From Deltaproteobacteria bacterium (lineage in GTDB: Bacteria > Myxococcota_A > UBA9160 > UBA4427), in contig JAJDAN010000013.1 of assembly GCA_029261855.1 (NCBI GenBank), forward strand, positions 124,001-188,000: a DNA stretch of 64,000 nucleotides, given 5' to 3'. This document shows positions 24,609 through 38,405 of the stretch, piece by piece. The notes under the pieces were generated by a model that saw only the letters and a program-made list of their open reading frames with translations, had not been told where the DNA came from and ran no database searches. Positions within the stretch are counted from its first letter, which is position 1, and each line of letters starts with the position of its first letter. The position numbers and the translations under genes were made by a program.

Positions 24609-25664
24609 TTGTCCCCCCAAGAGACATCTGGCACGGATCGCGAGCTGATCGATACGCTCGCCCGTCCGCTGCACGATCTGCGCATCTCCGTCACCGACCG
24701 CTGCAACTTCCGATGCACCTATTGCATGCCGGAGGAGATCTTCGGCGAGAAGTACAAGTTCCTGCCCCGGGCCGAGATCCTGAGCTTCGAGGAGATCGAG
24801 CGGCTGGTCGGCATCTTCACGGGGCTGGGCGCGCGCAAGCTGCGCATCACCGGGGGCGAGCCGCTCCTGCGTGTCGACCTGCCGGACCTGCTGGCGCGCA
24901 TCGCCCAGGTGCCGGGCGTCGAGGACCTGGCGCTGACGACGAACGCAACCCTGCTTCCGCGCCAGGCCGCGGCGCTGGCCGAAGCCGGCCTGCGCCGGGT
25001 GACGATTTCCCTCGACTCCCTCGACGAGGACGTCTTCTCGCAGATGAACGGCGGCAAGCTGTCGGTGGCGCGGGTGCTCGAGGGCGTGGAGGCGGCGGAA
25101 CGAGCGGGCCTCGGGCCCATCAAGATCAACACCGTCGTTCAGAAGGGCGTCAACGACCACACCCTGGTCGAGCTGGCGCGGCACTTCAAGGGCACCGGTC
25201 ACATCGTGCGCTTCATCGAGTACATGGACGTGGGCACGCGAAACGCCTGGGACATGAACCAGGTGCTGCCGGCTGCCGAGATCGTCGAGCGCATCGGCGC
25301 CGAACTGCCTCTCGCGCCCGCCGAGCCGAACTATCGCGGCGAAGTCGCCAAGCGCTGGCGCTACCAGGACGGCCAGGGCGAGATCGGCGTGATCGCGTCG
25401 GTCACCCAACCCTTCTGCGGCGACTGCACCCGCGCTCGCCTCACGACCGAAGGTCAGCTCGTGACCTGCCTGTTCGCGGAGAAGGGCGTCGACCTGCGAA
25501 CGCCCCTTCGAAACGGCTCCAGCGACGCCGAGATCCGGGATCTCATCGTCGCCACCTGGCGCAAGCGCAGCGACCGCTATTCCGACGAACGCCAGGAGCT
25601 GCTGCAGATCGAAGGCGTCAAGCCGAGCCGGCGCCGGATCGAGATGTACCAGGTCGGGGGGTGA
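24609..25664 (+). CDS. moaA: GTP 3',8-cyclase MoaA (molybdenum cofactor synthesis)
   Basis: A 351-residue radical SAM enzyme. The N-terminal [4Fe-4S] cysteines are in CNFRCTYC (32, 36, 39); the second cluster cysteines are 270, 273 (CGDC) and 287. The GG C-terminal tail needed for catalysis is present (MYQVGG), as are ITGGEP and LTTNATLL. MoaA converts GTP to 3',8-cyclo-dihydro-GTP in molybdenum cofactor synthesis. The best start is TTG 24609, 14 bp after the ClpP-like stop. Its last 20 bp (25645-25664) are the sequence repeated at 32975, 35826 and 38000, so the gene end is an integration target that keeps the protein intact. No other moa genes are near. Confidence 0.93.
   Translation: MSPQETSGTDRELIDTLARPLHDLRISVTDRCNFRCTYCMPEEIFGEKYKFLPRAEILSFEEIERLVGIFTGLGARKLRITGGEPLLRVDLPDLLARIAQVPGVEDLALTTNATLLPRQAAALAEAGLRRVTISLDSLDEDVFSQMNGGKLSVARVLEGVEAAERAGLGPIKINTVVQKGVNDHTLVELARHFKGTGHIVRFIEYMDVGTRNAWDMNQVLPAAEIVERIGAELPLAPAEPNYRGEVAKRWRYQDGQGEIGVIASVTQPFCGDCTRARLTTEGQLVTCLFAEKGVDLRTPLRNGSSDAEIRDLIVATWRKRSDRYSDERQELLQIEGVKPSRRRIEMYQVGG
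25645..25664 (+). repeat. att-like core, chromosomal copy at the end of moaA
   Basis: TGTACCAGGTCGGGGGGTGA encodes the last moaA residues and stop. It is repeated with one mismatch at 32975 (up to the final GA) and 35826, and with a few changes at 38000. Unlike the first two downstream copies, it has no inverted repeat immediately upstream. Confidence 0.8.
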
Positions 25665-25706
25665 CGCTCGTCCCATTCTGATTGGGCGTGCCAGGTCATC
25701 TCTGGG

Positions 25707-26267
25707 TCACGGTGGACGCTTGTGGAAGAGCCGCCTGAAATCGGCTTCGTAGTCCCTGGGTAGATCCCTCGCGTACCTCCAGTATCCGGCGGCGGCGACC
25801 ACCTGCTCGATCGTTGCGTGATTGCAGTCCACCATCAGCCGAAGCAGTTCCAGGGTCTTCATGGCTTCGATGTCGAATAGGTCCGCGAGGGCAAGCATGT
25901 CGCCGTCGTCCGTGACCACCGGAACGTCCAGAACCGAGGCGGTCGCCAGCGCCCTCGCATCCACTGGCGAGGCGCCGAGACCGCGCTGACGGGCCTCACC
26001 TTCGATCACGGAGATCGTCAGGGCGATCGTCTTCGCCGCCTTGCGCGGAATCGCGATGCTCCGCCTGCGGTTCTCCAGGTACTGCGGATCATTGACCCAG
26101 TGGAACTTCGTCTGCAGGCGGGGGCTTCGATCGAATTCCTGTTGTAGCTCCCGGATTGCGTACAAGCAGTGGCACTCGTTGCCGAACTCGATGTCGAGCA
26201 GCGGGTGAACCGTCTGGGCCAGCCGAAGGTAGGCGTTGGAGTCCAGCAGGATCTTCCGCTGTGCCAT
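25707..26267 (-). CDS. PIN domain protein
   Basis: A 186-residue protein. The N-terminal ILLDSNAYLRL (Asp9) and the later VVTDDGDMLALADL give the acidic residues of a PIN-type nuclease. The family includes VapC-type RNases. The ATG at 26267 overlaps the stop of the XRE-ImmA/IrrE gene by one base (TGATG), so the two form one operon. An XRE-metalloprotease plus PIN pair resembles a two-gene toxin/regulator module, but the toxin is longer than VapC and the partner is not a small antitoxin. Whether it acts as a toxin is an inference. Confidence 0.7.
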   Translation of the reverse strand: MAQRKILLDSNAYLRLAQTVHPLLDIEFGNECHCLYAIRELQQEFDRSPRLQTKFHWVNDPQYLENRRRSIAIPRKAAKTIALTISVIEGEARQRGLGASPVDARALATASVLDVPVVTDDGDMLALADLFDIEAMKTLELLRLMVDCNHATIEQVVAAAGYWRYARDLPRDYEADFRRLFHKRPP

Positions 26268-36939: not shown

Positions 36940-37892
36940 ATCCCGCGGCATTCACTCCCGTGGGGCCGCTGCCCAGCGGGCCCATCACGCTCGACACGAG
37001 CGGAATACCCACCGTCAACGGATCTCTCGCCGGTGTGGTCGTGGCTCCGCCGAGCGGAGGGCCGGACGTCGCGGTCTTCACCTTCTCCGGGGGCGCCGTG
37101 CTGGCGTTGTCCGACACCATCCTCGTGATCGGGAGCCGCCCGGCGGCTCTTCTCTTCACAGGCCCCGCCACGCTGCACGGCAACGTCGTCGTCGAGTCGA
37201 GCGCTGGAGCGGGAGGTGCGCCAGCGGCTGCCGGCGCCGGGCCGGGTGGTGGAGCTGGCTCCGCTCAGGGTGGGGGCGGCGGGGGGTACTCCGGTGGCGG
37301 GGGGACGGCAGGAGCTGCACCCGGCGGAGCGCCCTACGGCGTTGCGGTCGTTCTCCAGGGCGGCAGCGGCGGTGGCGGCGCGTCGGGTTCGGGTGGCCGC
37401 GGAGGCGGTGCGCTCGAATTGGGTGCACTCGGAGAGCTGCGGGTCACGGGCTCGATCGTCGCCGCCGGCACGGACGGCCAGGACGGCGCGGCCGGCGCGG
37501 GCGGGGGCAGCGGAGGGCATCTCATCGTTCACGCCTTCAACGTGGTGCTCGAGAGCGGGTCGCTCCTCGCCGCCAACGGGGCGAACGGCGGGTCCGCTAC
37601 CAACGACTTCGCAGGCGGTGGGGGCGGCGGCGGGCGCGTCTATGTACTCCACAATCTGGCGGGTCAGCTCGTCTTGAATGGTGTCATCGCGACGGCGGGC
37701 GGTTTGGCGGGCGGAGCCGGGTCGGGGAGCGGCGACGGCGGGCAGGTGCTCGTCGAGGCCGACCCCGTCGTGGGTGAGTTCCCGCCCGCCGTACCGGCGC
37801 TCGCATCGGGATTGCGAGGGGTCCTGTTCCTCGCTCTTCTCACGGCGGCGCTCCGCCGGCCTGTTCGCCAGGTCATGGCCGGCAACGGCTAA
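36894..37892 (+). CDS. Glycine-rich repeat protein, 3' part with C-terminal sorting-like signal
   Basis: 332 residues; this is the second copy of the repeat (FTPVGPLPSGPITLDTSGIP, FTFSGGAVLALSD, VVLQGGSGGGGASGSGG, HAFNVVLESGSLLAANG). The C-terminus (VPALASGLRGVLFLALLTAALRR) is a hydrophobic helix followed by Arg, like exosortase PEP-CTERM/IPTL-type signals. The GTG at 36894 is an artefact of the break; the linker before it belongs to the 5' part. Either a natural mutation or an assembly error separates the two. A long intact gene would join 35956 to 37892. Confidence 0.65.
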   Translation: MGEPPPDPPTPAPVLNPAAFTPVGPLPSGPITLDTSGIPTVNGSLAGVVVAPPSGGPDVAVFTFSGGAVLALSDTILVIGSRPAALLFTGPATLHGNVVVESSAGAGGAPAAAGAGPGGGAGSAQGGGGGGYSGGGGTAGAAPGGAPYGVAVVLQGGSGGGGASGSGGRGGGALELGALGELRVTGSIVAAGTDGQDGAAGAGGGSGGHLIVHAFNVVLESGSLLAANGANGGSATNDFAGGGGGGGRVYVLHNLAGQLVLNGVIATAGGLAGGAGSGSGDGGQVLVEADPVVGEFPPAVPALASGLRGVLFLALLTAALRRPVRQVMAGNG

Positions 37893-38405
37893 CGGACCGA
37901 CGGGTTTCAAGAGCGGAACTGGGGCTCCTGACGTCTCCTGACGCAATCTGTTGCCAGCAACTCCCTGCAAGCCCTTGAAGTCACTCCGTTCACTGGAACT
38001 GTACCCGCTCGGGGGGTGAGCGATACGTTGTCGACATCGTCGGCAAAGAGTGATTTCCGTCCATGCCCCTCAGCGGATGGTTGCGTGTCTGTCGCTACGC
38101 CGCGATCTCCGTCTACGGGCGCGTAGACCTGTCATGCCCCGGTTCTTCGGGCAATCACAGGCTGAGCGGACAGGCTGCTAGAGTCCGGGTTCGCGACTCA
38201 GTGACTGCCCGCCTTCCGGTCCCCGTCGCATTCCGATCTGACGATGTCGATCGAGCCTCTTGGGGGAGGGCCGCCGCGCTGGCGTATGGCTTTGCCCATA
38301 GGTCGACCGGGATGGCGGCTGCTGTCGCGTTGCAATTTCCGATCTGCTTCCCGAACTGCTTTGCGGCGAGTCGGGAGATCATGAGAGCTTGAGGGAGAGA
38401 GAGAG
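37893..38405. other. 513-bp gap containing the fourth att-like core
   Basis: No convincing gene. The core at 38000-38019 is the only structure I recognise. A 109-residue ORF at 38063-38392 looks random. The last bases (GAGGGAGAGAGAGAG) are the ribosome site of the methyltransferase gene. Confidence 0.5.
38000..38019 (+). repeat. Diverged att-like core, fourth copy
   Basis: TGTACCCGCTCGGGGGGTGA differs from the 35826 copy at two of 20 bases. A weak inverted pair (TTGAA and TTCA, about 9 nt loop) lies just upstream, in the place of the strong hairpin of copies 2 and 3. The outer box ACTCACGCCCCC is not seen. Confidence 0.55.

Follow-up and report, generated by a model that had tools for sequence, protein, structure and literature searches.

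The DNA analyzed in this study was a stretch of 64,000 nucleotides (nt), hereafter the window, from contig JAJDAN010000013.1 (positions 124,001 to 188,000) of the Deltaproteobacteria bacterium assembly GCA_029261855.1, and the feature of interest was a series of small islands stacked in tandem behind moaA, the gene for GTP 3',8-cyclase. The genome of the window, which comprises 6.96 Mb in 91 contigs, is referred to as G000, and the relatives compared with it carry other G numbers. An 18-base core at the end of moaA, TGTACCAGRTCGGGGGGT, was found on the + strand at 25645, 32975, and 35826 with no mismatch and at 38000 with two mismatches. The number of matches expected by shuffling was 0.04, and none of 100 shuffles reached four copies, which confirmed the recurrence of the core that an earlier note on the same DNA had described. 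At up to two mismatches, the complete G000 genome contained the four window cores and one additional site on another contig. The coding sequence of moaA was intact to its stop codon, with the end ...MYQVGG* and a TIGR02666 score of 386.5 bits (cut-off 284), in agreement with the note's statement that the gene is retained in full.

The blocks between the cores were 7328, 2851, and 2174 bp long, dividing 12.4 kb into units (Table 1). These correspond to the three blocks of about 7.3, 2.85, and 2.2 kb that had been noted before, and a fourth unit at 38018 to approximately 39200, which had been missed, was added to them. An 80-nt repeat, composed of a shared arm of about 62 nt followed by the core, ends at the cores at 32975 and 35826 and has 83% identity. 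The GC contents of units 1 to 4 were 59.4, 60.5, 71.7, and 59.6%, compared with 68.3 and 69.5% in the flanks; hence, unit 3 is not foreign-looking by composition.

Table 1. Features at the moaA locus (positions are those of the window)
Feature	Position	Strand	Remarks
moaA (GTP 3',8-cyclase), target gene	24645..25664	+	TIGR02666, residues 16-354 of 24600-25664; start approximate
Core copy 1, 3' end of moaA (attB/attL core)	25645..25662	+	
Unit 1, 7.3 kb, defence-type cargo	25663..32992	+	No integrase or left-end arm site found
'PIN-like' gene of unit 1 (name from the earlier note)	25707..26270	-	No family match
XRE helix-turn-helix + ImmA/IrrE (M78) regulator, unit 1	26267..27478	-	PF01381 1.2e-9, PF06114 4.5e-6
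HsdM, type I methylase, unit 1	27616..29175	+	PF02384 5.2e-57
HsdS, specificity subunit, unit 1	29172..30467	+	PF01420 7.6e-41
HsdR, EcoAI-type restriction subunit, unit 1	30464..32794	+	NF046051 810 bits, cut-off 550
Arm-type motif CACGCCCCCAA (P arm), right end of unit 1	32925..32935	+	Exact reverse complement of the G065 repeat
TAACCTGTTGAAT, putative IHF-like site between arm and core, unit 1	32943..32955	+	Assigned by eye
Inverted repeat CCTGTTGAA/TTCAACAGG, hairpin of the earlier note	32946..32973	+	
Core copy 2, junction of units 1 and 2	32975..32992	+	
Unit 2, 2.85 kb, DUF5131-TcmP and two small genes	32993..35843	+	No integrase found
DUF5131, unit 2	33126..33899	+	PF07505 6.1e-94; PADLOC candidate PDC-M30B/M41B
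TcmP three-Cys-motif partner, unit 2	33670..34983	+	TIGR04474 151.6 bits, cut-off 53; start approximate
Arm-type motif CACGCCCCCAA (P arm), right end of unit 2	35776..35786	+	
TAACCTATTGAAA, putative IHF-like site, unit 2	35794..35806	+	Assigned by eye
Core copy 3, junction of units 2 and 3	35826..35843	+	
Unit 3, 2.2 kb, glycine-rich protein	35844..38017	+	Right end is a core with no recognisable arm
Core copy 4, junction of units 3 and 4	38000..38017	+	Both differences lie in the half that would derive from unit 3
Unit 4, methyltransferase unit	38018..39200 (end approximate)	+	Left end resembles that of the G079 unit; right arm and core absent
Methyltransferase gene, unit 4	38406..39185	+	PF08241 2.8e-8

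Matches to moaA were found in 75 of 90 genomes of the class, and the comparison covered 60 loci whose 3' end could be read. With the addition of G058, the set included 61 loci from 59 genomes, and at least 10 kb of downstream sequence was available for 34 of the loci. Matches that did not extend to the C-terminus were excluded, as was a locus with 215 nt remaining, and the moaA end of G034 was mis-cut, with no stop codon where one was expected. Downstream repeats of the core at up to four mismatches were found three times in G000, twice in G063, and once each in G008 and G079, and a four-mismatch match in G061 was taken as chance. Reversed and reverse-complement controls gave four matches, all of them with four mismatches, so the four-mismatch copies in this comparison (those of G079 and at 38000 in G000) rest on their other evidence.

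Empty sites were found among congeners. In G061, the sequence from +90 to 8249 after the moaA stop matched positions 10473-18674 of its congener G063, past the last G063 core at 10418. Similarly, positions 95-798 of G080 matched positions 1303-2006 of its congener G079, past the core at 1179. A third member of the first genus, G062, had a different sequence there, without the flank common to G061 and G063. The two G063 units, of 2.5 and 7.9 kb, carry genes that include a sulfatase, a TPR protein, a glyoxalase, and a DUF4440 protein, and neither unit had a tblastn match to the integrases that adjoin moaA in G005 and G008. All features of an accretion array were thus found at this locus, namely one target gene, repeats of its 3'-end core, variable cargo, and empty sites, the last being exact for G063 and G079. 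The variation of cargo by genome and the empty congener sites bear out the earlier proposal of serial site-specific insertion at the moaA 3' end, and the search it had recommended for other cargo bounded by the core returned a prophage in G008, the G063 units, and a methyltransferase unit in G079.

The G079 unit also suggested a point of exchange. Its left junction is host-like to GATGTTCCAGATCGG and unit-like after, the order is reversed at its right junction, and the empty site of G080 reads GATGTTCCAGATCGGCGGCTAG. These sequences suggest an exchange within TCGG, which would explain why, among the three exact window cores, G is present at position 9 in moaA alone, and why the differences of the core at 38000 lie in the half derived from unit 3.

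Integrases were identified at the moaA end in other genomes. In G008, the moaA end and a second core are 53 kb apart, with a prophage between them that encodes portal, capsid, sheath, baseplate, and tape measure proteins (six of seven scanned proteins were recognised). Its integrase of 540 amino acids (PF00589, 4.8e-15; phrog_1, 3.2e-41) adjoins the moaA stop and points towards moaA. In G005, an integrase adjoining moaA is 55% identical to that of G008, and C-terminal remnants of integrases were found 3' of moaA in G023 and G065, whose left ends are common to G021 and G059. Based on the integrases and remnants in G005, G008, G023, and G065, the moaA 3' end is the bacterial attachment site (attB) of this family of phage-type tyrosine integrases in this bacterial class. 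The combination typical of phage attachment (att) sites, a PF00589 integrase at the site with arm repeats flanking a short core, was found for the G008 and G005 elements and was absent within the window. The kind of recombinase, which the earlier note had suggested be sought in genomes with the core, is thus identifiable. The note's claim of a missing recombinase was supported for the units, and no relative of the G008 integrase was found in the window (best tblastn E 0.28). A 50-codon fragment with a stop (G008:C2:3814-3963), 78% identical to the prophage integrase, was also observed about 6.7 kb past the right core of G008 and is perhaps a relic of an earlier element at the same place.

Relatives of the G005 integrase at E≤1e-30 were present in 14 of the 90 class genomes. 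The close ones were G005 itself and the G008 prophage copy (55%), and the others were 33-42% identical, including three in G063, one in G058, and one in G000; these are candidate enzyme sources in trans. No relative of the G005 or G008 integrase and no exact match of arm and core was found among the viral contigs, and the integrase had no match among PDB sequences. Family scans of the unit genes in the window revealed no mobility genes, with some small open reading frames (ORFs) scanned in part of the libraries only. The absence of transfer genes was judged from these scans alone, and on them the window units have neither integration nor transfer genes, as is the case for cis-mobilizable elements (CIMEs).

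The right ends of units 1 and 2 contain more than the core. The reverse complement of their arm motif is identical to the repeat beside the G065 integrase remnant, and within the window the motif occurred at up to one mismatch at these two sites only. The interval between arm and core reads TAACCT[A/G]TTGAA[A/T], which resembles an integration host factor (IHF) site. Direct repeats were likewise found at the integrase ends of other elements, namely TTGGTGCCCG in G008, GGTGCCCG in G005, TTGGGGGCGTG in G065, and TTGGTGACG in G021 and G023. At the right end of the G008 prophage, the reverse complement of its motif, CGGGCACCAAA, is found and is in register with CACGCCCCCAAA of the units in the window. 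When the moaA-side ends that have an integrase, a remnant, or a shared left end were compared with the window motif, zero, one, and two mismatches were found for G065, G059, and G023, respectively, and G005, G008, and G021 had other repeats. In G005, the repeat at the integrase end (GGTGCCCG) and the arm at the far end (CACGTCCGCAA) differ and are located on separate contigs, and their sequences may indicate two elements in tandem, one of them with an integrase. Judged by sequence, the layout of the half-site is that of one half of a phage attachment site (attP) rather than of an integron cassette site (attC); the integrase would bind the arm motif, and IHF would act at the interval.

A pattern of arm and core with a 27-nt spacing matched five sites in four of the 90 class genomes (two in G000 and one each in G005, G008, and G079). 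It was built from the first four sites, and G079, with two mismatches, was the sole independent find. The 27-nt spacing was observed in six of the seven arm and core sites. A covariance model built from five sites and applied to 377 genomes of the phylum recovered the same sites and a weak match in G063 that proved real. Two other weak matches were set aside by eye, one in G065 that reads as coding and one at G008:C55, a relative of the G008 P arm that likewise reads as coding. The P-arm segment of the G008 prophage resembles this apparently coding sequence of its own genome (C55:206501), and from this resemblance the phage attP may have derived from a gene fragment. Among 30 genomes of the family, eight exact core matches were found outside G000, seven of which were moaA ends and one the arm and core site of G005. 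A right attachment site (attR), made up of the arm motif, the 27-nt spacing, and the core, was found for units 1 and 2 and for the G079 unit, and not for units 3 and 4. As for left ends, unit 4 had one weak distal match to the arm motif with two mismatches, and the G079 unit had one motif with a single mismatch, CACGCCCCCGA, 16 nt in.

The methyltransferase unit was found in more than one family. In G079, which belongs to another family of the same order, a lone gene is located between the moaA core and an arm and core site 1.2 kb on. Its protein is 92-93% identical to the window methyltransferase, compared with 59% for moaA, and at the DNA level the coding sequences share 91.3% identity, compared with about 65% for the moaA ends. 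Directly after the core, the G079 unit and unit 4 share 15 of 22 bases, compared with 3, 3, and 6 for units 1 to 3. By eye, unit 4 is about 95 nt longer than the G079 unit before the next clear homology. Since the homology stops just past the gene, the right arm and core are missing in the window. The same gene was found 3' of moaA in G058, a member of a third family, with 95% identity over 63 amino acids. Two more copies, 79-81% identical, occur elsewhere in a fourth family (G031:C553:15559-16329 and G035:C63:1369-2142). Overall, the gene is rare: of the 377 genomes of the phylum, 5 contain it at E≤1e-60, a limit that the partial G058 copy does not reach, and no relative was found in the phage collection. 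From these similarities, the integrase-less methyltransferase unit has apparently moved between bacterial families. The G031 copy was observed beside a tRNA-Gly gene, and the methyltransferase gene may also be carried in tRNA-targeted islands.

The cargo of the window units (Table 1) agreed with the earlier description in its type I restriction-modification system, XRE-ImmA regulator, DUF5131-TcmP genes, and glycine-rich protein; the gene called 'PIN' had no match among the Pfam, PHROG, PADLOC, and NCBIfam families. The DUF5131-TcmP genes of unit 2 are a candidate defence pair in PADLOC. A search of the 89 other genomes of the class at E≤1e-25 found no relative of TcmP, and tracing unit 2 was therefore not possible. 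The glycine-rich protein of unit 3, encoded in two ORFs, had no Pfam match. Units 1 and 2 are probably retained for the benefit of their defence cargo. A DUF5131 gene was also observed in the G008 prophage near its integrase (positions 707-1618 of the G008 segment), as in unit 2 of the window.

Taken together, the locus is probably a tandem accretion array of four non-autonomous, CIME-like islands at moaA, moved by moaA-specific integrases encoded elsewhere. The crossover by which elements enter would lie in the TCGG of ...GATGTACCAG[A/G]TCGG..., and the Gly-Gly-stop end of moaA would be rebuilt from the right half that arrives with them. Serial insertion behind moaA would then have produced four stacked units, none with an integrase. 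Units 1 and 2 keep the right half-site of arm motif, IHF-like site, and core, unit 3 has the core only, and unit 4 has lost its right end. The integrase would be supplied by prophages or integrase-bearing elements at the same locus, and the units would move either with an integrase-bearing neighbour (in cis, after accretion) or as free circles (in trans), both of which agree with the observations. The differing repeat and arm of G005, which look like those of tandem elements, are a hint of mobilization in cis. Of the parts of this explanation, the repeated cores and arms, the elements with and without integrase at moaA, the empty sites of congeners, and the near-identical integrase-less unit at moaA in two families were seen directly.

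Several observations weigh against an array of mobile islands. No counterpart of the shared arm precedes the core at 38000, and the first G063 site, counted by eye, has a spacing of 37 nt instead of 27. In a scan for one motif, the arm motif at up to two mismatches was absent from the first 160 nt of units 1 to 3; with a core and no arm motif, the left ends of the window units do not form a complete left attachment site (attL) such as a CIME has. In G007, a congener of G000 that lacks the array, another gene lies between moaA and the shared epimerase, so the empty-site check proposed by the earlier note, which gave exact sites in G061 and G080, gave none for G000. The only relative of the moaA integrases in G000 at E≤1e-10 (C39:2-898, 39% identical) is cut on its C-terminal side by the contig end. 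A three-repeat pattern built from G059 and G065 matched those two of the 90 class genomes only, and no intact cognate integrase was found with it; an enzyme with the repeats TTGGGGGCGTG is predicted to act on units 1 and 2. For the methyltransferase unit, the 15 of 22 shared bases are the best score on the + strand, but at least four other + positions equal it, and one - position reaches 16; MAFFT aligned the methyltransferase units from the downstream homology on and not at their left ends. The G058 contig ends inside the gene, and its left end, the first 110 nt or so, differs, 78 nt of it being common to G006. This 78-nt segment was observed directly after the moaA stop in G006 and G058, which belong to different families; it is 82% identical, ends in CATCGGGGG..TGCGGAGCGATCT, after which the two genomes diverge, and is perhaps the left end of another element or a collapsed site. 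Finally, an excised form is not visible in assemblies.

The earlier note had pointed to a resemblance to integrons. An integron-like system, in which the core and the hairpin upstream of it serve as the attC-like site and moaA as attI, with recombination of the folded single strand, is very improbable. Compared with shuffled sequences, single-stranded folding was favorable at the two window sites (z of -3.13 and -2.86) and weakly so in G079 (-1.87), and tandem, short, mostly one-sided units would fit such a system. However, four of the seven arm and core sites, in which a conserved imperfect hairpin would be expected of attC, folded no better than shuffles, with z from -0.64 to +0.46 (+0.41 in G005, +0.46 in G008, and -0.03 and -0.64 at the two G063 sites); the values for the moaA end and the core at 38000 were +0.29 and +0.78. 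RNAalifold gave an attC-like consensus for five sites, with changes on both sides in 7 of 26 pairs, which is in its favor, but the covariation term was unfavorable (+1.24). Hence, a conserved folded site is not supported by the sequences. In addition, what had been read as the outer stem of the hairpin is the arm-type motif, the reverse complement of the G065 integrase-end repeat, and the integron reading was dropped on these two grounds. The G008 integrase scored 21.9 bits with the integron integrase model TIGR02249 (cut-off 265), compared with 143 bits with the phage integrases of phrog_1, and no integron integrase was indicated by the search for moaA-integrase relatives in the window, which was not itself scanned with TIGR02249. 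By eye, no core of the GTTRRRY type typical of integrons was seen, and this was also counted against the integron-like explanation.

Two other explanations dispense with movement by an integrase encoded elsewhere. The units could be leftovers of integrase-bearing elements whose integrase side was deleted beside moaA before they were pushed along, such that no unit ever moved without its own integrase. The remnants behind moaA in G023 and G065 show that such decay occurs, and it would account for window left ends that start right after the core with no arm sites. It is nevertheless unlikely, as the integrase-less methyltransferase unit is found in two families with a similar left end (the 15 of 22 bases, a score that other positions share) and the gene follows moaA in a third, which would require several separate decays. 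The least credible alternative is that ordinary islands arrived by independent routes and the core was repeated through homologous exchange or gene conversion around moaA. The shortness of the repeats and the native-like GC content and missing arm of unit 3 are in its favor, but it is opposed by the recurring spacing of arm and core, the integrases that adjoin moaA in other genomes, and the G079 junctions that switch halves within TCGG.

The architecture of an accretion array at moaA is already known, from CIME accretion and from the ssrA islands of Dehalococcoides, and the earlier view of an undescribed kind of mobile cassette was not sustained. The closest precedent is the Dehalococcoides array. 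The islands there are likewise in tandem behind a single-copy gene, with a 20-bp repeat of the 3' end of that gene at the boundaries of each island, and a mismatch places the crossover (PMC3146451). An integration module lies beside attL in 16 of them and is missing in 15, for which the authors suggested that they might be cis-mobilizable. The Dehalococcoides islands have a tmRNA target, the serine recombinase DsiB, and reductive dehalogenase cargo, whereas the array described here has a protein gene, moaA, a tyrosine integrase, defence and other cargo, and units down to 1.2 kb. In accretion arrays of CIMEs and of integrative conjugative and mobilizable elements, the end of a target gene is followed by tandem elements in which integration and transfer genes are lost, as observed here; CIMEs keep both attL and attR, and cis mobilization with an integrase-bearing neighbour is described (PMC5704250). 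In contrast, the window left ends show the core only. The microcin H47 island of E. coli is also integrase-less, and it is reported to be mobilized in trans, excising and integrating via functions of the rest of the genome, a 'parasitic strategy' (PMC3191183). It differs in being a single 13-kb system with extensive imperfect repeats and experimentally shown mobility, set against sequence evidence here.

Integron cassette arrays consist of short tandem units, each with a recombination site at its end, inserted at a fixed site with the integrase outside the units. The moaA array shares all of these properties, but it has no integron integrase and no conserved attC-type fold, and a housekeeping gene provides the fixed site with its end. 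The composite islands of the staphylococcal cassette chromosome (SCC) are stacked in tandem at the 3' end of rlmH/orfX, some of them without a recombinase, and are moved by serine recombinases (Ccr); they are alike as tandem 3'-end islands and differ in recombinase and target.

In the available text of open-licence papers, a literature search returned no report of moaA as an integration site. As far as searched, the target gene, its integrase family, and the half-site common to integrase-less units are new, as is the presence of a single-gene unit at moaA in two families and of its gene there in a third. In a little-studied class, a prophage and stacks of small islands use the moaA 3' end as a landing site, and the locus provides a natural case in which an integrase-less island appears to have been spread by site-specific recombination. 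It also makes testable whether half an attachment site is enough for a phage enzyme to move islands without an integrase. A minimal cassette system of this kind, in which one right half-site of arm, IHF-like bend, and core would suffice for integration in trans by a moaA-specific phage integrase, is rather doubtful at present. If it were true, anti-phage defence cassettes would be spread and stacked behind moaA by an enzyme that comes from the very prophages attacking these bacteria.

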